This document shows positions 4,329 through 39,214 of a stretch of 46,425 bases of DNA, piece after piece. Origin of the DNA: a virus. The position numbers were made by a program, and so were the translations under genes. Each line of letters begins with the position of its first letter. Position 1 is the first letter of the stretch. The notes below the pieces were generated by a model, which saw only the letters and a program-made list of their open reading frames with translations, did not search any database and was not told where the DNA came from. The stretch lies in IMG/VR virus record IMGVR_UViG_3300042450_001601, positions 1 to 46,425 of that record, one strand, 5' to 3'.

Positions 4329-5030
4329 ATGATAAAAATACCTATTACAAAAATTTTGTTTCTTGACATAGAAACTGTTGGTGGTTGTAAAGATTATGAA
4401 AGTTGTAAAACAAATAATCCACAAGTTGCTGAGCAATTCATCAAATACATCGATTGGTTTCAAAAAAGATTTCCTGAGGACTCTCAGTTATCTCTAGATG
4501 AGATTTTTGCTAAAAGAACCGCTCTCGTACCTGAGTTTGCTAAAATAGTTTGTGTTAGTGTTGCTTTTGTTATGGACAATGGGGAGATTAAAAGACAAAC
4601 ATTCTCAAATGATGATGAAAAACAATTATTAAAAGATTGTCAAACATTACTTAATCGTTGTGGAAAATTAGATTTTTATTTATGTGGGCATAATCTTAAG
4701 AATTTTGATATTCCTATGTTAGCAAAACGTATGATTGTTAACGGATTATTACCTCCGTCAATCCTACCATCATACGATACCAAACCGTGGGAGATTAAAG
4801 CTATTGATACCAAAGAGATTTGGCAATACGGATCATACACATCAATTGGATCATTAGATTTGATGTGTTCTTGTATGGATGTTCCTTCACCAAAAAATGG
4901 AGAAGTGACCGGGGATAAAGTTCACGATGCCTATTGGAATAGAAATATGTTAAAAGAAATCTCGGAATACTGTGAACGAGATGTTGATGTATTAATCGAT
5001 GTTATTAAAAAATTAAAAGAGTTACAATGA
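4329..5030 (+). CDS. PolB-related 3'-5' exonuclease (DnaQ superfamily)
   Basis: A 233-residue protein with the three DEDD exonuclease motifs: ExoI FLDIET (Asp13, Glu15), ExoII GHNLKNFDIP near residue 125, and ExoIII YCERDVDVL near residue 215 with Tyr four residues before the catalytic Asp (DEDDy type). The length and arrangement fit the stand-alone 'predicted exonuclease related to PolB' family rather than a polymerase fragment. It probably removes 3' nucleotides in replication or repair. It starts 4 bases after the glycosyltransferase stop and overlaps the dUTPase start by 4 bases. Confidence 0.8.
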   Translation: MIKIPITKILFLDIETVGGCKDYESCKTNNPQVAEQFIKYIDWFQKRFPEDSQLSLDEIFAKRTALVPEFAKIVCVSVAFVMDNGEIKRQTFSNDDEKQLLKDCQTLLNRCGKLDFYLCGHNLKNFDIPMLAKRMIVNGLLPPSILPSYDTKPWEIKAIDTKEIWQYGSYTSIGSLDLMCSCMDVPSPKNGEVTGDKVHDAYWNRNMLKEISEYCERDVDVLIDVIKKLKELQ

Positions 5031-5620
5031 AAGATTTAGATTTATTAAAAAGTCAAGCCGAACAATTACAAGATTTTATCGATCAATTTGATGATGATGA
5101 TTTGAATTATGATAACATTTTTGAGGAATCAGGTCTTGACCTTAAATTATTGGAAAGTGAAATGGAAAACCATGTGACAAAATTAGATTTGGGGTACGTT
5201 AAGTTAAATTCTGATGCGACTGACCCTAAATACAATTACGATACTGACTCTGGGTTTGATTTACATTCAATTGAGGAAGTTGTTATTTCAGCATTCGGTA
5301 GAGTGTTGGTTCCAACAGGTATATCATTCGACATTAAGGATGGGTATGAAATTCAAGTTAGATCAAAAAGTGGTTTGGCGATTAATCAGGGTTTGATGGT
5401 GTTAAATTCTCCTGGTACTGTGGATAATGGTTATTCCGGGGAAGTTAAGGTAATTGTATTTAACACTAACAGTCATCCTGTAACAATTACAAAAGGTATG
5501 AAAATAGGACAAGCAGTCCTTTGTCCTGTGGTTAACGGTAAATGGGTGAACTTAGTTCAGAAAAATAAAATAAACGAAAAAGACAGAGGAGACAATGGGT
5601 TTGGGTCAACCGGAATTTAA
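5027..5620 (+). CDS. dut: dUTPase (trimeric type)
   Basis: All five dUTPase motifs are present: TDSGFDLHS (1), RSKSGLA (2), GTVDNGYSGEVKV (3, with the catalytic Asp), KGMKIGQAVL (4) and the Gly-rich C-terminal arm DRGDNGFGSTGI (5). The enzyme hydrolyses dUTP to dUMP and keeps uracil out of phage DNA. At 197 residues it is longer than the usual ~150 because of an acidic helical N-terminal extension of about 50 residues (FDDDDLNYDNIFEESG), whose job is unknown. The C-terminal motif 5 codons overlap the start and ribosome-binding site of the next gene. Confidence 0.93.
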   Translation: MKDLDLLKSQAEQLQDFIDQFDDDDLNYDNIFEESGLDLKLLESEMENHVTKLDLGYVKLNSDATDPKYNYDTDSGFDLHSIEEVVISAFGRVLVPTGISFDIKDGYEIQVRSKSGLAINQGLMVLNSPGTVDNGYSGEVKVIVFNTNSHPVTITKGMKIGQAVLCPVVNGKWVNLVQKNKINEKDRGDNGFGSTGI

Positions 5621-11657: not shown

Positions 11658-12461
11658 ATGGAAAAATTTGATGTATCAGTAATATTACCAATTAAATCAT
11701 CTAAAACAAACGGATTTGCGGAATATTTCGAAAAAGCAATCACCTCTCTTAAAAATCAAACAAAAACAATCAAAGAATTAATTATTGTTCATACAGATGA
11801 AACATCTTTAGTTGAGTTTTTAAATGATTTTGATTTTGGGGATTTAAGTGTTAATAAAATCGTATGGACAAAAGAACCTAATTTCTCGGAGCAAGTGAAT
11901 TATGGTGTTAGATCATCAGAATCTAAATGGGTTTCATTATTTGAATTTGATGATGAATACTCTAACATTTGGTTTAAAAATGTGGAAAAATATTCAATCT
12001 CTTATCCTGAAGTTGACGCTTTCTTACCTATCGTTATCGACACAGATGAAAAAGGTCAATTTGCTGGATTCACTAACGAAGCAACTTTTGCTTTAAATAT
12101 TGCTGAGGAAATGGGGGTCTTAAGTAATGATACTCTCCAAACATACCAAAATTTCCAAATTTCAGGAATGGTAATTAAAAAATCATCATTTGTTGATTAC
12201 GGATTATTAAAACCATCTTTTAGATTAACATTTGGTTATGAATTCTTTTTAAGAATGACTCATAATTCAGTTAAAGTTATGTCAATTCCTAAGATTGGAT
12301 ATAAACACATCAATTTACGTGAGGGGTCTATATTTTGGAACTATAAGAATGGTAATGATATATTAACTGACGATGAAGTTAGATTTTGGGTTGAATCAGC
12401 AAAAAAAGAATATTTCTTTATTAATGACAGATCAATAAATTATGAACCACAGTCAGTTTAA
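11658..12461 (+). CDS. GT2-like glycosyltransferase
   Basis: A 267-residue protein with a GT2 opening (FDVSVILPIKSSKTNGFAEY), TIKELIIVHTDETS in place of the usual D-G-S strand, and SKWVSLFEFDDEYSNIWF, a DD motif in the position of the metal-binding DxD. RLTFGYEFFLRMTHNSVKV resembles the acceptor-side ED region. Divergence at the DxD makes activity less certain. Its stop overlaps the ATG of the sigma factor gene by one base. Confidence 0.65.
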   Translation: MEKFDVSVILPIKSSKTNGFAEYFEKAITSLKNQTKTIKELIIVHTDETSLVEFLNDFDFGDLSVNKIVWTKEPNFSEQVNYGVRSSESKWVSLFEFDDEYSNIWFKNVEKYSISYPEVDAFLPIVIDTDEKGQFAGFTNEATFALNIAEEMGVLSNDTLQTYQNFQISGMVIKKSSFVDYGLLKPSFRLTFGYEFFLRMTHNSVKVMSIPKIGYKHINLREGSIFWNYKNGNDILTDDEVRFWVESAKKEYFFINDRSINYEPQSV

Positions 12462-13210
12462 TGAGCGAAATTACAATTTCACCAGACACAACCGATGGTG
12501 AATTAAAAAAGAAAGGTAGGAAACCAAAACAAGCTAACTATTTTGATGTTCGAGAAGAATTGGCTGTGGTGAGATTCCTATCAACGGATTCGTCGGATGA
12601 AAAAAATAAGATATATAATGAGTTTTTAAGAGAACCATTAGATAAGATGATTTCCTCAATTATTAGAAGGTATAAATTGTATCGTAAAGATATGGATTTC
12701 ATTGATATCCACACCGACACACATTCTTTTCTAATGACAAAGATTGATAAATTTAAACCAGCTAAAGAAAAAAAGGCTTATTCATATTTTGGAACCATTT
12801 GTAAGAACTATCTAATGGGTCAAATTATTAAAGATCAAAAAGAGACCAACCGAAAAATATCATATGAGGACATATCATCAAGTATTGAGAATAGTCCTCA
12901 ATTTTCGTATCAAATTGATGGTGATAGTGTTGATTCACAACAAGTTATTAAAAACTTCTTAATGGAGTTAGAAAAATTCTTAAATGAAGAAAATTTAAAT
13001 GAAAACGAAATTAAACTGGGTCATGCATTGTATGATTTGTTTAATGATTATGAAAATATTTTTATCGGAACATCAAATAATAAATTTAATAAAAATATAA
13101 TACTTTTATCGTTAAGAGAAATGACGAACTTATCAACAAAAGAAATACGTAGTTCTATGAAAAAATATAGAATAATCTATGTTAATCTTGTTGAAAAAAT
13201 GTCTAAATAA
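12461..13210 (+). CDS. 55: T4 gp55-like late-transcription sigma factor
   Basis: A 249-residue protein related to T4 gp55 and minimal sigma70-family factors. The hallmark is KIDKFKPAKEKKAYSYFGTI followed by CKNYLMGQIIKDQKETNRKI, the region-2-like core that binds the polymerase clamp and the -10 DNA. The N-terminus is a basic tail (KKKGRKPKQAN). The C-terminal half (LSLREMTNLSTKEIRSSM) has a helix-turn-helix look. It would direct host RNA polymerase to late promoters, here probably the TATTTAT box. It is longer than T4 gp55 (185 residues). Confidence 0.8.
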   Translation: MSEITISPDTTDGELKKKGRKPKQANYFDVREELAVVRFLSTDSSDEKNKIYNEFLREPLDKMISSIIRRYKLYRKDMDFIDIHTDTHSFLMTKIDKFKPAKEKKAYSYFGTICKNYLMGQIIKDQKETNRKISYEDISSSIENSPQFSYQIDGDSVDSQQVIKNFLMELEKFLNEENLNENEIKLGHALYDLFNDYENIFIGTSNNKFNKNIILLSLREMTNLSTKEIRSSMKKYRIIYVNLVEKMSK

Positions 13211-22708: not shown

Positions 22709-22849
22709 GTGATTAAAGGAAACGATTCAGATACAATTAATTACAATGGGTTAGAACGAAACAATCCTAACTTATCGGGTGGAATGGAAGACGATTTAGA
22801 TACAACGTCCACCCTCTTTTATTATCTTAATAGATTTAAATGTCCGTGA
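22709..22849 (+). CDS. Possible small ORF (46 codons, GTG start)
   Basis: A GTG-started frame encodes a polar peptide (SDTINYNGLERNNPNLSGGM, then a C-terminal LFYYLNRFKCP). It fills the only sizeable gap between minus-strand genes, and its 3' end overlaps the convergent adhesin gene by 28 bases. No box, ribosome-binding site or family supports it, so it may be chance. Confidence 0.2.
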   Translation: MIKGNDSDTINYNGLERNNPNLSGGMEDDLDTTSTLFYYLNRFKCP

Positions 22850-23394
22850 GTTTGAATTCTTCTATCATCACTATAGATTCCAAACTCCATCTTCCATATA
22901 TAAACCCCATCTTGACATTTTTTTCCACCATATGTACCATTCCATCTGGCTGAGGTATCATGTGATTCCCATAGAATTTCACCCCACCTATTAAAAATCA
23001 AAAAGGTAAAATCAGTAATATCTATACCATCTGTGATTACAGGATAGAAATATTGATTATATTCATCATTGTCAGGTGTGAATGTATTAGGAACCCAATA
23101 CACCATTTCCTCACAAAAAATAACAACAACACTATAACTTTGGGTATCAGACGGACAATCCCCATTGACGGAATAACCTGTTACTGATATATCATATGTC
23201 CCAGCAACTGACCAATCCATAGTTAACTCGTCCACTAAATAGTGATCACCATTAACTACCCAATCAAAATTCATAGGTATTTGTGAATTAATCGAATATG
23301 TATAAGACACAGATTCCCCCTCACATATCTCAATGACTTGTTGAGAATATGTGAAGAAACCTGTTAAAAATAATATTGTTAAAATTAATTTCAT
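22822..23394 (-). CDS. Exported protein with gliding-motility/T9SS type B sorting domain
   Basis: A 190-residue protein. The Sec signal peptide is KLILTILFLTGFFTYSQ. Residues ~22-92 form a PKD/Ig-like domain (ICEGESVSYTYSI; WSVAGTYDISVTGY). Residues ~97-190 match the gliding-motility-associated C-terminal (CHU_C) domain: WVPNTFTPDNDEYNQYFYPV, FTFLIFNRWGEILWESHD, WNGTYGGKKCQDGVYIWKME. In Bacteroidota this domain sends proteins through the T9SS and attaches them to the surface in a SprF-dependent way. It is the last gene of a four-gene cassette; the preceding stop and this ATG are separated by one base. Confidence 0.85.
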   Translation of the reverse strand: MKLILTILFLTGFFTYSQQVIEICEGESVSYTYSINSQIPMNFDWVVNGDHYLVDELTMDWSVAGTYDISVTGYSVNGDCPSDTQSYSVVVIFCEEMVYWVPNTFTPDNDEYNQYFYPVITDGIDITDFTFLIFNRWGEILWESHDTSARWNGTYGGKKCQDGVYIWKMEFGIYSDDRRIQTHGHLNLLR

Positions 23395-30060: not shown

Positions 30061-31950
30061 TTATCTCAATTCTCTTAAATCGAATGTTCTAACACCATCA
30101 ACGGTAATGCGGCCATAAAACCTGTTGTTCACCATTTTTTTCGCGTATCTTGTCATTATACCTTTAATCGGTGTAAAGTTGAACGGATTGTACATTGTAG
30201 GTGTTAATTGTAATGGTACGTATGGTGCGTAGATGTAACCTGTGTCTAACAATGACGTTCCTTTGTGTCCAATCAAAACTTGGTTTGGTGGGAAGTAAGG
30301 GTCACGGAAAACTTGGTAACGACCAGCTAATGTTCCAACTCTTTCAATACCCATGTTATATTGGTCTTGTTCAGGAGAAGCATTAGATACGTGGAAGTAT
30401 TCTAAATCGTCAAAGATAGCAGAAACCTCAGAAGAAACAACGATCCAGTTAGCCCCACCTCTTAAAGTAGATTTGTGGATTTGTGCTGACAACTGATTGA
30501 TTGCTGTAATCAATGTTTGATTCCAATCTTTTTGAGTGTAGTTAGTTGTAGCAGAAATTCTTCTCCAACCATTGTAATCCCAACGTAAGTTCCATGCTGC
30601 ACCTTTACGTAAATCTCTAAGGATTTCACGATCGATTTCAGCAGCAACTTGTTCAGACAATAAAGCTGTTAATTCAGCTTCAGCATCGATGTTATGGAAT
30701 GCACTAACATCTTGAGCTAACTCAGGAGACCATTGTGCTCTTAATTTTCTTTCAGTAACAGATACTGTAACAGAATCCAATTCGAAAGAAACCTCACCGA
30801 TTTTATCTTCGAATTCCATTTCTTTGTAACGTCTGAATACTGCTGTAAATGCAGTAGGATCAACATCAGCACCAAGAGTAGTTCCTGTGTAACCATCTAA
30901 AGTAGAAGAACCACAATCAGCACATGCTGGACATGATAAATCAACTTCTAAATAGATACAACCTGTTGGTGAACAGATGTCATTGTATTGACCACCATTA
31001 CCATTAGATGGCCATGTTGTTTGAGCCATACTGTTTAATCCTGATACAATTCCTTGACCGTATTGTTGAGTAACAACTCTGAACAATAATGAATTTGGTT
31101 GGTGAGCCGCGTTAAAAGCGTTTTGACATTCAGTTGACGCAGTACTTGCAGACCATGTAGAGTCATTATAAGCTCCGTTAGCGAAAATTCTTAAATCAGA
31201 TAAGAAAGTTTCAGAATCATATTCGTTACCATCAGGTCCGATTAATTTTCCTGTACCTACATTTGCAAATCCACACATTTTAATAATTACTTTTCTAACG
31301 TTTTGGTCGTTTAATTCACCATCTAAGTCAGCTAAAGCACCATTACTCCAAACTTGGATATCTGTACCAACAGTAACTGCTGACCATTGTCCTTTAGAGT
31401 AATCGAATAAACCTGGAGGGTCTAATTGTCCTTCATTTCCTTCATAAAATAAATCGTAAAGATTTTTCTTACCGTAAGTTGAAGAAGTACCATAACCAAC
31501 ACCAGCTTGTCCTTGTGCTGCAGTTAAACCATCAACCGCACCGATTGGTCCGTAATGTTCACCTGATGTACCATCGTAATCATTAGCTGGTGTTTGAGCA
31601 GTTCCTCCATCATACCCTTGAATTTTAGGTACGAAGTAGAACAATTTACCGATAGGTAAGTTCATTGCTTGTACAGATACGATTTCATTCGCTAATAATT
31701 TAGAGAATACACGTCTAACGATAGGGAAAACTACAGTTTCAAATGAACCTGAAGAACCTTCTGAAGTCGCTTCGTTTATTAAGTGAGACGCTTGATTCTC
31801 ATATAACTGAGCTACGTTCTCTTTTAGGTGACCTTTAAGGCCTTCTAGGAATCCTAATTTATCCCATTTGTTAATAGTATCTTCTTTAATAACTTTAAGG
31901 TGTTTTAACCCTATGTTACCAACAAGACCTGATTCTAATAATGCTCCCAT
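30061..31950 (-). CDS. 23: Major capsid protein (gp23-like)
   Basis: A 629-residue protein of the T4 gp23 family. The N-terminal ~60 residues form a helical propeptide ending HLINE, followed by ATSEGSSGSF, a prohead-protease site like T4's cleavage after Glu65. Then come VVFPIVRRVFSKLLANEIVS and VQAMNLPIGKLFYFVPKIQG, the gp23 N-arm pattern ('vR...p.lia.divgvqpm..ptG'). The C-terminal part has ISATTNYTQKDWNQTLITAI and WIVVSSEVSAIFDDLEYF. It is about 100 residues longer than T4 gp23, including a Cys-rich insertion (LSCPACADCGSS). It ends the head operon; the leader is A/C-rich with no Shine-Dalgarno. Confidence 0.9.
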   Translation of the reverse strand: MGALLESGLVGNIGLKHLKVIKEDTINKWDKLGFLEGLKGHLKENVAQLYENQASHLINEATSEGSSGSFETVVFPIVRRVFSKLLANEIVSVQAMNLPIGKLFYFVPKIQGYDGGTAQTPANDYDGTSGEHYGPIGAVDGLTAAQGQAGVGYGTSSTYGKKNLYDLFYEGNEGQLDPPGLFDYSKGQWSAVTVGTDIQVWSNGALADLDGELNDQNVRKVIIKMCGFANVGTGKLIGPDGNEYDSETFLSDLRIFANGAYNDSTWSASTASTECQNAFNAAHQPNSLLFRVVTQQYGQGIVSGLNSMAQTTWPSNGNGGQYNDICSPTGCIYLEVDLSCPACADCGSSTLDGYTGTTLGADVDPTAFTAVFRRYKEMEFEDKIGEVSFELDSVTVSVTERKLRAQWSPELAQDVSAFHNIDAEAELTALLSEQVAAEIDREILRDLRKGAAWNLRWDYNGWRRISATTNYTQKDWNQTLITAINQLSAQIHKSTLRGGANWIVVSSEVSAIFDDLEYFHVSNASPEQDQYNMGIERVGTLAGRYQVFRDPYFPPNQVLIGHKGTSLLDTGYIYAPYVPLQLTPTMYNPFNFTPIKGIMTRYAKKMVNNRFYGRITVDGVRTFDLRELR

Positions 31951-33872: not shown

Positions 33873-34598
33873 TTATCTGTTTCCCAAATAATCGTTCAAT
33901 TTTTTCATTAAGTCAAGCGATTTATTTCCAGATTCACCAACATGTCTATCTATTGACGTTCTTTTTTCTTCTTCAATATTCTCTTCAAAATTATTTTTAT
34001 CTTCTTTATTTAAGAAAAGGTAAGCACCTGGTGTTGATGGTGAAGAAACTAAATCGAAACAAATTAATTCATAATCTCCTTGTACTTCATTCTGTTCACC
34101 AACCTTTTTTAAAGAACCCACACCTCTTGATGAGATACCTAATGTTACCCCTTGTCTTAAATAATTTGCTGCGATATCTCCTTTAGTTGAAACAATTCCT
34201 CTTTCGTGGAACCCTGGACTTGTTAACAATTTTATTTTACCCATTAAGGTCGGCCCTTCCCACCAAACCTCGGTTATCATATGAGACACTCTATCCAAAT
34301 CGATTAATGAAGACTCGGGATGATTTAACTCAGATAAAGAAGTTCCTTTTTGAATTAATTTTTTATAATTTTCAGCTTCTCTTTTAAGAATTTCTTCTGG
34401 GTATACTCTTCCGTTTCTATTAGGGGTGTCGTATTTTTGTAAGACCGCATAAAACTCAAATGGTTTAGAATGATCTAATGTATTCGCTGATTCTAGTATA
34501 TAAGAATTTTGTTCACTTTTTGGTGAAATGTATCCAGCATCGTACTCAATAAGAATCCCCCTCCCCGATTCTCCGGGTTTTATAATTTTTAAATCCAT
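33873..34598 (-). CDS. 21: Prohead core protease (gp21-like, S78-type)
   Basis: A 241-residue protein with ISPKSEQNSYILES (possibly a self-cleavage zone), KYDTPNRNGRVYPEEIL, the catalytic His in LSELNHPESS (His93), VSHMITEVWW, and the catalytic Ser in GVTLGISSRGVGSL (Ser156/157), followed by LICFDLVSSPSTPGAY. This is the T4 gp21/herpesvirus-assemblin-like serine protease fold. It would cleave scaffold, capsid and internal proteins after (I/L)xE during head maturation. The position between portal and scaffold matches T4. Confidence 0.9.
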   Translation of the reverse strand: MDLKIIKPGESGRGILIEYDAGYISPKSEQNSYILESANTLDHSKPFEFYAVLQKYDTPNRNGRVYPEEILKREAENYKKLIQKGTSLSELNHPESSLIDLDRVSHMITEVWWEGPTLMGKIKLLTSPGFHERGIVSTKGDIAANYLRQGVTLGISSRGVGSLKKVGEQNEVQGDYELICFDLVSSPSTPGAYLFLNKEDKNNFEENIEEEKRTSIDRHVGESGNKSLDLMKKLNDYLGNR

Positions 34599-34612: not shown

Positions 34613-34619
34613 ATAAATA
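34613..34619 (-). promoter_or_regulatory. TATTTAT box for the protease unit
   Basis: It lies 14 bases before the 34598 start and immediately downstream of the 156-residue gene's stop. Confidence 0.6.
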
Positions 34620-35090
34620 TTAAAGATCGGCCATTTGTTCCACCATTTCTGTTCTTTTGCCCTTTTTAGTTAAATAAAAATTGAAATATTCGTTTTCATT
34701 AAAATTTTGTTGTAGGATATCTTTTGTTATTTTTTTAAGTGAATCACGTAATCTCATTGATTTAAAATCTATTTCTTGGTCTTTTAAAAAGAAATTAATT
34801 TCTAAGTTTAAAAAAGATTTTTTCCCTGTTGTTAATCCACTTGATCGTAAATCCAGATCTACAATAAAACCTTCTTCAAATATATTTCTATCTATACTAC
34901 TATGAACGATGTGTTTTATTGACCTACTTAGATTTAAAACCACTCTGTTCCAATTCTCTGAGTCTTTTATTGGTTCTACCCATGTTTGAAGGTTTAAGTA
35001 AAGGGATTTAAACTCAATTGAGTCTACTGTACCATATACCACTTTTGTTGATTTAAATCCAAGGATTTGTGAGGTTTTCCCCTTTTTCAT
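34620..35090 (-). CDS. Hypothetical head-block protein
   Basis: A 156-residue protein: KVVYGTVDSIEFKSLYLNLQ, TWVEPIKDSENWNRVVLNLS, IVDLDLRSSGLTTGKKSFLN, LEINFFLKDQEIDF. The alternating pattern suggests an alpha/beta fold. No family is recognised. It sits between portal and protease, where T4 carries the small core genes 67 and 68, but it does not resemble them in composition (it is not strongly acidic). Confidence 0.55.
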   Translation of the reverse strand: MKKGKTSQILGFKSTKVVYGTVDSIEFKSLYLNLQTWVEPIKDSENWNRVVLNLSRSIKHIVHSSIDRNIFEEGFIVDLDLRSSGLTTGKKSFLNLEINFFLKDQEIDFKSMRLRDSLKKITKDILQQNFNENEYFNFYLTKKGKRTEMVEQMADL

Positions 35091-35131
35091 TAATTTCCAT
35101 ATTTTATTAGTTTATTTTCCTAAAAAATAGG

Positions 35132-35139
35132 TATATTTG
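35132..35139 (+). promoter_or_regulatory. Bacteroidota-type -7 element for phage rpsU
   Basis: TATATTTG matches TAnnTTTG and lies 44 bases before the rpsU ATG. No good -33 element is seen. It directly abuts a minus-strand TATTTAT box (35141-35147). Confidence 0.5.
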
Positions 35140-35140
35140 T

Positions 35141-35147
35141 ATAAATA
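35141..35147 (-). promoter_or_regulatory. Possible TATTTAT box for the 35090 gene
   Basis: It reads TATTTATAC on the minus strand, but 50 bases before the start, farther than the other examples, so the assignment is weaker. Confidence 0.35.
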
Positions 35148-35183
35148 GTCAAAAAAAATAAAAGGTAGGGGTATTTCTAATAT

Positions 35184-35375
35184 ATGTTAATAATTAAAGT
35201 TGAGAAGGGTAATATCGATAGAGCCCTAAAAATGTACAAAAGTAAAGTCATTAAAACCAGACAAATGTCTGAGTTAAACAAACGTAAAACATTCATTAAA
35301 CCATCTGAAGATTATAGATCTATGATGGATAATGCTAAGTATGTTCAGGAAAAGTATAAATCTAATGAAGATTAA
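35184..35375 (+). CDS. rpsU: Phage-encoded ribosomal protein bS21
   Basis: A 63-residue basic protein matching Bacteroidota bS21 over its full length: MLIIKVEKGNIDRALKMYKS, TRQMSELNKRKTFIKPSEDY, AKYVQEKYK. Tyr53 corresponds to the C-terminal Tyr (Tyr54 by my recollection of the Flavobacterium numbering) that contacts the anti-Shine-Dalgarno region of 16S rRNA. It is the only plus-strand gene in the head block. The leader has an AGGTAGGGG purine stretch 12 bases before ATG, a Shine-Dalgarno-like sequence with long spacing. It probably replaces or competes with host bS21. The 3' end overlaps the convergent gene by 4 bases. Confidence 0.88.
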   Translation: MLIIKVEKGNIDRALKMYKSKVIKTRQMSELNKRKTFIKPSEDYRSMMDNAKYVQEKYKSNED

Positions 35376-36088
35376 AGATTTTCTTTAAGGTTTTTTAATT
35401 TGAAGTAAGATAATTTATCATACTTTTCTAATTCAACCTTTTCAATAGTTTCGTTTATTCTATCTAATGTGTTAAAATCAGAACCTCTTTGTAAATTCTT
35501 TAGTTTTACAATTATATCATTTTTAATTGTGTCAAAATCTTCTTTTAATATAGAATCATCTGTAGATAAGAATTTTATTACTTCTCTTTTTTCAGACTCA
35601 TTTAAACCATCAATATAATTTGTAATTGTTTTGTTGGCAACACTTACCATTGTGTTTAACGGTAGTTTAATAATTTCTTTACTAATTGGGGTGGGAACCA
35701 TTAAAGATTCTTTAATCAATTTTTTACTTTTGATTTTAGACTCAATAGTTAATACATCGGTTGAAAATAGTCCATCAACGGTTTCGTATAGGTTTTCTGA
35801 CTTAACATTGTTCACCCAAGTCTTTAAATTATTTAAATCGGAAGGTTTAATTTTGTTAATAGAATTTTCATACATAGTAACACACTCGTATATGTAGTCA
35901 TTAACTGTATTCTCGTTTAAACCTTTTTTAGAACTTAATTCATCGTACAAATAAAATATTTTACTAATATTTTTATTTTCCAATACTAATTTTTTAAAAT
36001 TCTTTAATTCACCTTTAAAAGTGTCATTAGAATACGATTCTAATAACACTTTTTCTATCTTAGATTTTAATATACCAAACTTAACCAT
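35372..36088 (-). CDS. Hypothetical helical head-block protein
   Basis: A 238-residue, almost entirely helical, Lys/Glu/Asn-rich protein. Its N-terminus (KFGILKSKIEKVLLE) resembles the short leaders of other proteins here and ends in Leu-Leu-Glu, a possible prohead-protease site. The remainder has repeated charged helices (KFLSTDDSILKEDFDTIKND; LDRINETIEKVELEKYDKLS). The position after the portal and the helical composition suggest a prohead core component, similar in place to T4 gp67/gp68, but no homology is visible. Confidence 0.5.
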   Translation of the reverse strand: MVKFGILKSKIEKVLLESYSNDTFKGELKNFKKLVLENKNISKIFYLYDELSSKKGLNENTVNDYIYECVTMYENSINKIKPSDLNNLKTWVNNVKSENLYETVDGLFSTDVLTIESKIKSKKLIKESLMVPTPISKEIIKLPLNTMVSVANKTITNYIDGLNESEKREVIKFLSTDDSILKEDFDTIKNDIIVKLKNLQRGSDFNTLDRINETIEKVELEKYDKLSYFKLKNLKENL

Positions 36089-36102: not shown

Positions 36103-36109
36103 ATAAATA
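36103..36109 (-). promoter_or_regulatory. TATTTAT box before the 36088 gene
   Basis: It lies 14 bases before the 36088 start, next to the portal stop codon. Confidence 0.6.
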
Positions 36110-39100
36110 TCAATCTTTTAGAAGTTTACTCAATTGATCCTCCATTTCTCCTAAAGAATTTTTTCCTTTGGATAAATCAATGTATGAATCTTCGTCAGTT
36201 AATGAGTTTGATTCTAATAGAATTTTTAAGTTATCTCGTTTAAATGATTCTGGTGTCATTCCCGCATCTCCTCCTGGTTCAGGTCCTGGAGGTGGTGGTG
36301 GAGCCATTGATTCTCCTCCTCCCATATCACCGCCTGGAGGTGGTGGTGGAGCTCCTGCTCCCGCATTTGCTGTCGATCCTGATTTATTACCATACAATTT
36401 ATCAACATTATCAAAGATACCGGAATGAGTGATGATTGTTGCTGTGTTAGTCAACTCTGCTCCAACCGCTTTCTCAATACGTTGTTGTTGTAAATCAAGT
36501 TTAATTTCTTCGTCTGAGAATCCTAAAATATGTTTTTTAGCCCATGATACCGATACTGGAGCAATTCCTTCAATACCCGCAACAGCGTCTTTATATAATA
36601 AAATCTTCTCTTTCCACAAATCAACTTTTAATAAATCTGCTTGAGAAGATGGATTTGTTAGACCTAACGTAAAGTTTGATAACTCGTCCTCAAACCCTAA
36701 TAGGAATAAGTGAATAATCGCAATCTTATTCATTTCAGCAATCATACATTTTTGAATTCTATTAATAGTTCTTGCGAAACGTATATCCATTAATGATAAA
36801 TCTTTCCCACCACCAACAGGTTCTTCAAAACCTAAGAAAGCTTTAGGTACACGTAGAGCGGTTAACAATTTCTTTTGAATATATTCAATATCCGCAATTT
36901 CAGATAAATTGGTTGCTCCCGGTAATGTCTCAATTGGTGATGCTTGAGCTGGATCACGAACAGGTATAAAGTAATCTTGGTCAACAGCCATTTGATTGAA
37001 ACGTAAATCTACATTACCTGTTTTTGAATCTACAACTTGATCTCTTTTAAATTTGTTCGCCACACGTTGTACATATGCCTCAACGTCTTTGTCATCCATA
37101 TTACCAACAAAAACTTTAAATACTCTTCTTTCTGGAGCTCTTGATGTTCTATAGATTAACATCGCATCTTCAGATAACAATAACTGTTTCCAAATACGTC
37201 TCGCTTTTTCTAACATAGAAGTTCCGTATGGAAGTTTTCTATCATCACCTAATAATCTAAAGTGGGCAATTTCCCATGAATTAAATTCCATGTCTTTAAC
37301 CTTCCACTTAAATCTCAGACCTTTATTTTCAACTGGTTCATCAATGTTTTGTTTTGCTGCTTGGGACGCGACACCTCTCTCCAAACGTTCAATTTCAATG
37401 TTCGGTAGTTGTTGACATCCAATAATACCTTTTTCAGAGTCTAATTTTAAATAAACGAAATTATCCCCATATTTACAGTTGGACAAAAACACTCCAGAAG
37501 TCCTTGAAAATGAACCATTTACGTCCTTACCTAACACCGGAAAGTTATGTCTATCGTGTTCTCCGTTAGGGCCAACAGCCTCTAAACAATAGACATCTGA
37601 TGTTTCATTTAATTTAACAACAGAAACAACTTTATGGTTTAATAAGGTTTTTTCTTTTGTTTTACCTAAATAAATCGATTTTGCTTTTATATAGTCTTTA
37701 TCTAAAATAAGGATTGGTTTAATCGACAAAACAAAATCAAAATAATTTTGATTTGTTTTTCTAAAAATAACTTTATTCAGTGTGGTTGAATTAATTGATT
37801 TACGTATATCTTTCCTTAAAGTATAATTTTCTTTAAAAAAATTAAGAAAGTCCTCGTCATTTTTTAATAATTCTGATAATTTATTAATTCCGACATAATT
37901 TTCAGAATTTATAATTAAATTTGATACGTATTCTAAACAAGCATCACTAATTTCAATAGTCATGCGTTTTTTAGTTTTTTCTATAAATTCTTTAGACCCC
38001 CAATTATTCAACATTTTTTCAGAACGAATTTCATTATGTTCTGTATGTAAAACACTATTGTTATATTGTTCAAAATATTTAGGATATATTCCTGACATTT
38101 CCTTAGATAGTCGTTCTCTTCTTTTATCTGACCTTAAATACTTATCAATACCGTCCATTCTTTTTTTAACAACTTCTGGTGACCCCAATATTTTATCAAA
38201 ATGTTCTACATGTAGTTTAAAATGGTCTGAATGTGTTAATCTAATTAAATTATTAGGGGTATTATTTAATTTATTAAAATCATTGTGATGTGTATCAAAT
38301 TGACAACCAATAGATTTTTCATAGTCTAAATCCCTAACACACTCATGTGCAACTAAAGAATGTGTAAATTTATATTTAGTGGAATTAGGGTTATACACTT
38401 TTTCATATCCCACGATACAATCTTTTTTCTTTTCACTTTTTCTACTATAAAACGGCATCAAAGATTGACCTTCAGTTAAATTGTCAGCTCTTTTATATGA
38501 CCCATCTCTAAGCATATATTCATGATCGGGTGTTGTGTCAATATACGTTCCGTCATCTAATGTGACTCTTATTAGTTCACTATCCTTTCTAGTTAAGTCG
38601 CACCATATAATTTTACTAGGGACAATTGACTTTGTTCCGTCTTGTATTGCGTAAGACCATATCTCTTCATTGTTTTTTATTCTATCAGACAATTCTTTAA
38701 TAGTTATCTCGGTACCATCTAATAATGGTATCATACTATCTTCTCTAATAGGGGTATTTCTCACCCACATAGGTAAGTTTGTATTAACATCCATAACGTT
38801 ATTAAACAAATCCGCCAATATTGATTTGATTCTTTTTGATTCAGAATATATTTGTAACATATATCCGTTCTCATCGACCGTTGTTGATTCTTCTCCATAA
38901 ATGTCTAATGCTGCGGATATTTCTGGAGTATACTCCATACTTTCATAATCGTAAAACGACGCCAATCTTGTTGGTTCATAATAAACCGATTGGGTATACA
39001 TATTACTTTCAATCTTTGTCCACTGATTTGCTAAGTAATATGTTTGTTGAGCTTGTAATAACTCTTTATCGTATTCTTGTTTAGATGTTGTTTTTAATAA

Positions 39101-39214
39101 GTCTTTTCTATCAAACTTATATGTTGGGTAATCTTGGTTTAATAAGGCGTTTGGGCCAAATGCGTGTGATAACCTCTGCCAAACCGTTAAATTTCCGTTG
39201 TCTCTATTTTCCAT
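36110..39214 (-). CDS. 20: Portal protein (gp20-like) interrupted by an intein
   Basis: A 1034-residue open frame; without the insert the portal would be ~609 residues (T4 gp20 has 524). N-extein (1-154): YESMEYTPEISAALDIYGEE, NTNLPMWVRNT. C-extein from Cys580: CKYGDNFVYLKLD, MEFNSWEIAHFRLLGDDRKL, PYGTSMLEKARRIWKQLLLS, APERRVFKVFVGN, EPVGGGKDLSLMDIRFARTI, all typical of gp20. The C-terminus has a Pro/Gly-rich stretch (GAGAPPPPPGGDMGGGESMA) unusual for portals. The portal forms the dodecameric DNA channel of the head and should need splicing to work. Confidence 0.9.
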   Translation of the reverse strand: MENRDNGNLTVWQRLSHAFGPNALLNQDYPTYKFDRKDLLKTTSKQEYDKELLQAQQTYYLANQWTKIESNMYTQSVYYEPTRLASFYDYESMEYTPEISAALDIYGEESTTVDENGYMLQIYSESKRIKSILADLFNNVMDVNTNLPMWVRNTPIREDSMIPLLDGTEITIKELSDRIKNNEEIWSYAIQDGTKSIVPSKIIWCDLTRKDSELIRVTLDDGTYIDTTPDHEYMLRDGSYKRADNLTEGQSLMPFYSRKSEKKKDCIVGYEKVYNPNSTKYKFTHSLVAHECVRDLDYEKSIGCQFDTHHNDFNKLNNTPNNLIRLTHSDHFKLHVEHFDKILGSPEVVKKRMDGIDKYLRSDKRRERLSKEMSGIYPKYFEQYNNSVLHTEHNEIRSEKMLNNWGSKEFIEKTKKRMTIEISDACLEYVSNLIINSENYVGINKLSELLKNDEDFLNFFKENYTLRKDIRKSINSTTLNKVIFRKTNQNYFDFVLSIKPILILDKDYIKAKSIYLGKTKEKTLLNHKVVSVVKLNETSDVYCLEAVGPNGEHDRHNFPVLGKDVNGSFSRTSGVFLSNCKYGDNFVYLKLDSEKGIIGCQQLPNIEIERLERGVASQAAKQNIDEPVENKGLRFKWKVKDMEFNSWEIAHFRLLGDDRKLPYGTSMLEKARRIWKQLLLSEDAMLIYRTSRAPERRVFKVFVGNMDDKDVEAYVQRVANKFKRDQVVDSKTGNVDLRFNQMAVDQDYFIPVRDPAQASPIETLPGATNLSEIADIEYIQKKLLTALRVPKAFLGFEEPVGGGKDLSLMDIRFARTINRIQKCMIAEMNKIAIIHLFLLGFEDELSNFTLGLTNPSSQADLLKVDLWKEKILLYKDAVAGIEGIAPVSVSWAKKHILGFSDEEIKLDLQQQRIEKAVGAELTNTATIITHSGIFDNVDKLYGNKSGSTANAGAGAPPPPPGGDMGGGESMAPPPPPGPEPGGDAGMTPESFKRDNLKILLESNSLTDEDSYIDLSKGKNSLGEMEDQLSKLLKD
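37478..38752 (-). mobile_element. Intein with HNH endonuclease in the portal gene
   Basis: Codons 155-579 of the portal frame (about 425 residues). Block A-like start PIREDSMIPLLDGTEITIKE; block B-like TYIDTTPDHEYMLRDG; HNH core near residues 308-336 (DTHHNDFNKLNNTPNNLIRL, then SDHFKLHVEH); block F-like VYCLEAVGPN...RHNFPV; C-terminal end GVFLSN followed by Cys580. Removing it joins RNT to CKYGDNF, as expected for gp20 homologues. The first residue appears to be Pro (or the preceding Thr), not Cys or Ser, and the penultimate His is Ser, so the splicing mechanism is atypical. The N-terminal edge is uncertain by a few residues. Confidence 0.85.

Follow-up and report, generated by a model that had tools for sequence, protein, structure and literature searches.

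By comparing the leader of a phage rpsU gene with the leaders of its viral relatives and of host genes we could show that the phage leaders do not carry the extended Shine–Dalgarno (SD) sequence which is used by Flavobacteriales hosts for the autoregulation of bS21, an observation which is apparently new. The gene lies in a stretch of viral DNA of 46,425 nucleotides (IMG/VR record IMGVR_UViG_3300042450_001601), in the following called the window. The gene is real and mostly known, and the new and useful part is the regulatory contrast with the host rpsU, the meaning of which depends on the host. This contrast suggests that the virus copy escapes the host brake. A search of titles and abstracts, with most subscription journals and all preprints outside its reach, found no published analysis of a phage rpsU leader. 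The gene and its surroundings are organized as follows:

35184–35375, + strand: rpsU, phage bS21 of 63 aa, Tyr53 corresponding to Tyr54 of F. johnsoniae (open reading frame, Pfam profile, alignment)
34620–35090, - strand: CNdiv, conserved protein of 156 aa, function not assigned, divergent neighbour of rpsU
35372–36088, - strand: CNconv, conserved helical protein, function not assigned, convergent with rpsU
33873–34598, - strand: prohead protease (PF03420)
36110–39214, - strand: T4-like portal protein with intein (profile matches)
30061–31950, - strand: major capsid protein (PF07068)

The reading frame of rpsU is intact and clean from its ATG start, and the bS21 profile PF01165 matches the product with an E-value of 1.6e-10 and 40.9 bits (cut-off 27), which bears out the preliminary description of a full-length bS21 gene; the NCBIfam model TIGR00030 scores 28.8 bits, marginally below its cut-off of 28.95. 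In the alignment with chain 7jil_z of the F. johnsoniae ribosome Tyr53 falls on Tyr54, and this position is aromatic in 98% of 66 phage bS21 proteins (Y 71, H 24, F 3). The tyrosine had been described as C-terminal; its correspondence to the host residue holds, but it is residue 53 of 63 and not the C-terminus. Likewise, the protein had been called close to the Bacteroidota form. It is of the Bacteroidota type with the aromatic residue that caps the anti-SD, but residues 20–27 read SKVIKTRQ where hosts have [KR]KF[DE]KTG[TV], and this block is phage-specific: at host positions 21–28 the 66 phage proteins have S21 in 98% and I24, R/K27 and Q/L28 in 100% each. The proposed phylogeny against host bS21 also separates the two, as the 66 phage rows form a single clade with support 100/100 apart from the 130 host rows, and the window bS21 does not group with host bS21, in a tree which is built on 64 alignment columns only and in which the Flavobacterium-like hosts are represented by 20 of their 54 distinct proteins. 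Purifying selection on the phage protein is clear, since pairs whose amino acid identity is 90% or more differ at 18.7% of the 4-fold sites. We infer that the window bS21 would enter 30S subunits, and a bS21 with Tyr53 would probably keep the anti-SD hidden. The bS21 of a different phage has been found incorporated into E. coli ribosomes (Mizuno 2019, cited in PMC9723584).

Both the gene and its position are as reported for phages predicted to infect Bacteroidetes (Chen et al. 2022, PMC9723584), whose bS21 is encoded antisense within the portal/protease/capsid block and is likewise aromatic at position 54. In the window, too, rpsU is flanked by two hypothetical genes and runs antisense to them within a portal, prohead protease and major capsid protein block; the start of CNdiv is divergent and 93 nt upstream, and the stop codons of rpsU and of the convergent CNconv overlap by 4 bp. 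Chen et al. call the neighbour of bS21 bS21_CN, and their phages, TerL clades a–e, have genomes of about 300 kb; the window is a fragment of 46 kb. Among the ribosomal proteins encoded by viruses bS21 is reported to be the most frequent (PMC9723584; PMC9976891). Other viral bS21 (Mizuno et al. 2019) is likewise encoded by phages, with a different host group and different gene surroundings. The structural block is T4-like, with an intein-containing portal gene, prohead protease, DUF4494, a scaffold-like gene and the major capsid protein, and includes homologues of portal Gp20, protease S77 and capsid protein Gp23.

With the T4-like myoviruses the window has in common the Gp20-type portal, the gp21-type protease and the gp23-type capsid protein. 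It differs from them in the portal intein, a T9SS-tagged protein, the antisense rpsU and the use of TATTTAT instead of the T4 late motif TATAAATA. The intein in the portal gene (36110–39214, - strand) shows HNH-endonuclease-like matches.

Relatives were fetched as 80 viral bS21 loci, 80 prohead-protease loci, 31 loci from a host-bS21 query and 80 CNdiv loci. In the protease set, which is not selected for bS21, both neighbours are found in 73 of 80 loci and bS21 lies antisense between CNdiv and CNconv in 73/73, as it does in 78/78 of the loci found with bS21. The CNdiv query gave 80 loci with bS21 in 78, one ambiguous case and one case without bS21, L500 (positions 1380–1520), which is the sole one among the CNdiv loci with sufficient flank that has no bS21 and which retains the CNdiv promoter boxes described below. 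For CNdiv itself the comparison to PDB structures gave no relative at E ≤ 0.001, the best re-scored Z of 7.8 being in the chance range, and INPHARED gave no match; a single viral protein, itself uncharacterised, is related in structure (E 1.3e-10), and a weak RpbA match was seen in 2 of 39 CNdiv members (E 0.0089). L418, L426 and L427 belong to another T4-like lineage, in which protease and bS21 share a strand and CNdiv and CNconv have no match in these stretches; in L418 and L426 bS21 has a long N-terminus and the capsid protein is also encoded on its strand. One locus listed as viral, L398, has a context resembling a host chromosome and TGAGA in its leader, the genes there presumably being, as judged from the translations, rpsU, a tyrosine recombinase-like gene and an hpf-like gene.

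SD pairing was calculated between the last 25 nt before the start codon and the 16S tail, and an extended SD was defined as pairing below -13 kcal/mol. For the tail we used what we take to be the anti-SD sequence; a search for it in the available genomes did not find it, and the complementarity of 11–13 bp which host rpsU leaders show to it supports this sequence. In the window one element of the leader is concerned:

35163–35171, + strand: SD-like AGGTAGGGG of the rpsU leader, not conserved; it pairs weakly and with a bulge (-8.9 kcal/mol), and its end is 12 nt away from the ATG

The preliminary description had counted this element as the SD of rpsU. It is present and the second strongest among the 46 genes of the window, but it does not reach the -13 kcal/mol of an extended SD, random or shuffled 25-mers pair as strongly in about 4% of cases, and the stretch differs even among near relatives of the window. 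An extended SD is found in 0 of 72 distinct phage rpsU leaders, in 0 of 58 distinct leaders of the more distant sample based on CNdiv (derived from 78 bS21-bearing loci among the 80 CNdiv loci) and in 0 of 27 clusters after clustering of the phages at 80% protein identity. The mean of the 72 leaders is -1.8 kcal/mol, and pairing of -7 kcal/mol or better occurs in 7/72 (the window and six others) vs. 4/72 in a mock window, the CNdiv-based sample giving 2/58 both in the leaders and in the mock. Flavobacterium-like host rpsU leaders, used as positive control, have a mean of -19.6 kcal/mol and are below -13 kcal/mol in 80/80 cases (78/78 distinct leaders, the number used in one comparison).

The host rpsU is autoregulated through its extended SD, which is read by ribosomes lacking bS21; such ribosomes start translation more quickly on rpsU mRNA and more slowly on mRNAs without an SD (McNutt et al. 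2023, PMC9976891). The phage gene shares with this system the Tyr54-equivalent bS21 and a lineage with hidden anti-SD; the defining extended SD is missing from every phage leader examined (72 + 58 distinct). In the main text of Chen et al. (2022) no analysis of SD or promoter sequences of phage rpsU was found, nor was one of the phage rpsU leader found in McNutt et al. (2023), who include a passage speculating on phages.

The mismatch profile of 71 close phage pairs gives no sign of an SD being preserved: positions -25 to -11 change at 0.11–0.14 per site, which comes near the rate of 4-fold sites (0.187), and positions -35 to -26 at 0.02–0.04 per site. As the phage bS21 proteins form an old separate clade, the SD was perhaps never present rather than lost. 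An alternative anti-SD core gave no signal. Diversifying selection was considered for a hypervariable stretch of 5 nt at the SD position (57/110 in the window clade vs. 60/330 at 4-fold sites), but the stretch had been picked post hoc after inspection and the signal was gone when all clades were profiled. A GATATTTGTAATAT-like stretch directly 5′ of the rpsU ATG occurs in the window (35170–35183) and in L399, L400 and L413, that is across distant clades. For a huge-phage bS21 (L397, LR756501.1, 735 kb) the leader, AAAGGAGG, is strongly SD-like (-12.1 kcal/mol) and in this respect unlike those of the group of the window.

The scarcity of SD sequences is not restricted to rpsU. In the window only 3 of 46 genes have a pairing of -7 kcal/mol or better vs. 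13 of 46 in a mock window, so SD sequences are avoided, as the preliminary description had noticed for most phage genes. Further, 0 of 382 leaders in the structural block of the relatives (major capsid protein, scaffold, DUF4494, protease, CNdiv, CNconv, portal) reach this value. For this set, as for the 67 of 72 rpsU leaders used alongside it, only distinct leaders preceded by 90 nt or more were taken, portal contributing only 4. These numbers, together with the drift of the leader stretch near the 4-fold rate, are in favour of mere ribosome maintenance, in which the phage copy would supplement bS21 after host synthesis stops, with no feedback logic, the rpsU leader being plain because phage leaders generally have no SD. 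This view leaves the fixed phage-specific hinge signature unexplained, and we regard it as unlikely.

It had also been suggested that the phage bS21 shifts SD-dependent translation towards a few SD-bearing phage genes. The three strongest SD-like sites of the window do precede rpsU, 5595 and 15508, but the latter two are located inside the upstream coding sequence. The AGGAG before 5595, which had been taken for an SD, falls within the upstream dUTPase reading frame (5027–5620) in codons for R-G-D-N-G, presumably motif V of the dUTPases. In the phage records AAGGAGGT-N4..12-ATG, examined for SD-bearing genes elsewhere in phages, is about as frequent as its reversed control. As such sites are less frequent in the window than in the mock, lie in coding sequence in two of three cases and are not conserved in the relatives, the proposed targets are not supported. 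In addition, a bS21 of the Tyr54 type should hide the anti-SD and not expose it, which is the reverse of the target idea, and we consider this explanation extremely improbable.

Concerning transcription, the following elements of the window are relevant:

35132–35139, + strand: TATATTTG, host sigma-A-like -7 box in rpsU direction
35147–35154, - strand: AGTCAAAA (TTTTGACT on the - strand), -33 box of the divergent CNdiv promoter, kept in L500 (without bS21)
35122–35129, - strand: TATTTTTT on the - strand, -7 box of the CNdiv promoter, exactly 20 nt from TTTG
36103–36109, - strand: TATTTAT, late-promoter-like motif before CNconv
34613–34619, - strand: TATTTAT, late-promoter-like motif before the protease gene
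12461–13210, + strand: possible late sigma factor, weak (TIGR02937 E 9.8e-5, below cut-off; phrog_234 E 0.008)

TATATTTG fits the host sigma-A -7 consensus TAHHTTTG (PMC6847099) and differs from the TATTTAT of the structural neighbours, in agreement with the host-type promoter of the preliminary description. In the group of the window TAHHTTTG precedes rpsU in 28/67 cases vs. 4.5 expected, as compared to none of the structural genes apart from CNdiv, which has 4/69 (5.8 expected); here and in the following the expectations are from resampled sequences, and related sequences are not independent. All 72 intergenic regions were usable for the count of -33 and -7 boxes. A candidate -33 box of rpsU, TTT[AG]-N17, is present in 41/72 (1.6 expected), but the case for the GTTTAT which supplies it is weakened because L500, which has no bS21, retains its complement. 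AGTCAAAA as an rpsU element was for the same reason reassigned to the CNdiv promoter. The latter has the pattern TTTG-N20-TANNTTT with a spacing of exactly 20 nt in 54/72 intergenic regions vs. 0.5 expected, and in 29/55 of those of the distant group; on inspection L500 has it as well. The patterns are kept in 20/27 clusters for CNdiv and in 15/27 for rpsU. CNdiv is, as judged from these boxes, under a putative host-type promoter in both branches.

In the window TATATTTG sits between both CNdiv boxes on the opposite strand. With rpsU antisense between two genes and its promoter overlapping that of CNdiv, rpsU transcription might mainly tune CNdiv or CNconv, and the interlocked divergent promoters as well as the convergent overlap with CNconv would fit this. 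The clear purifying selection on the bS21 protein argues against it, and such a positional role appears very improbable to us.

Among the words upstream of the window genes TATTTAT(A) shows the highest enrichment (17/46 upstream regions vs. 2.8 expected); often followed by TAAAA, it is a strong late-promoter-like motif of this phage group. In the relatives TATTTAT is found before scaffold in 52/52, protease in 68/72 and CNconv in 67/68 cases and is not enriched before rpsU (6/67, 6.0 expected) or CNdiv (4/69, 4.8 expected). A late promoter shared by the rpsU genes of the window clade was rejected, as TATTTAT occurs within the last 45 nt in only 4/72 (5.2 expected). In the distant clade, on the contrary, it lies close to the rpsU ATG in 49/55 distinct intergenic regions (2.6 expected). 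With a late-type motif in the distant clade and a host-type box in that of the window, rpsU appears to be under different promoter classes in the two branches.

These data also bear on the proposal of Chen et al. (2022, PMC9723584) that phage bS21 substitutes into host ribosomes late in infection. The resulting specialised ribosomes, with the 16S-anchoring part of bS21 kept and the N-terminal helix and hinge changed, would then prefer phage mRNAs late. The fixed phage-specific block at host positions 21–28 is consistent with this proposal, as are the bS21 transcripts seen alongside late and structural genes (PMC9723584) and the TATTTAT before rpsU of the distant clade; the window clade, without the late motif, speaks against it. 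We consider this proposal doubtful, though a serious candidate. Early action of the phage copy, as suggested in the preliminary description, is a conjecture, beside which stand the transcripts seen with late genes and the late-type motif of the distant clade.

How the leader is to be interpreted depends on the host. Extended SDs are by no means general: in a sample drawn evenly from the whole class (119 genomes, 115 with bS21; 116 of 118 leaders usable, L320 and L379 being dropped as they have no ATG) only 19/116 rpsU leaders have one, a scarcity expected from the lineage pattern in McNutt et al. (2023, PMC9976891). Only for 17 of the 72 phage bS21 proteins does the best-scoring host bS21 have an extended-SD leader, and the window protein scores equally best with a Flavobacterium that has an extended SD and with a host that has none. 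The product of the region 22822–23394 (- strand) carries a sorting domain of T9SS type B (TIGR04131 42.8 bits vs. 35, PF13585 49.3 vs. 27) and might be exported by the type IX system of the host. This domain and the assignments of Chen et al. favour a T9SS-bearing, often Flavobacteriia-like host. With the extended SD rare in the class, escape from the feedback is a step which we infer and which would hold for a host with such a leader.

Our best reading, which is tentative and falls somewhat short of probable, is that the phage bS21 is a replacement which is free of feedback and leaves the anti-SD hidden. In this view a T4-like phage infecting a Bacteroidota host would make its own bS21, which would replace or supplement the host bS21 on the 30S subunit. 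The equivalent of Tyr53 would keep the 16S 3′ tail sequestered, so that the ribosomes would be SD-blind and replete with bS21, as the SD-less phage mRNAs would need. Because the phage rpsU mRNA has no extended SD, which in many Flavobacteriales imposes the negative feedback on the host rpsU, synthesis of the phage bS21 would not be throttled once the ribosomes are full, and ribosome occupancy by phage bS21 may shut off the host rpsU. A more far-reaching version, which we judge quite unlikely, is that the feedback itself is hijacked. Tyr54-type phage bS21 made from an SD-less mRNA would fill the ribosomes and remove the bS21-less ones; as these alone translate the host rpsU well, their removal would stop host bS21 synthesis, which would thereby switch itself off while the ribosome pool is converted. 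CNdiv, divergent from rpsU and nearly always next to it, may take part in the exchange speculated on by McNutt et al.

In Flavobacteriales the level of bS21 decides whether the SD is visible to the ribosomes, and the host rpsU is reportedly the one gene that exploits this. A phage family that keeps bS21 without the regulatory leader lends itself to a simple and sharp test, and the promoter comparison points to promoter switching inside one phage family, one gene having a late-type promoter in one branch and a host-type promoter in the other.
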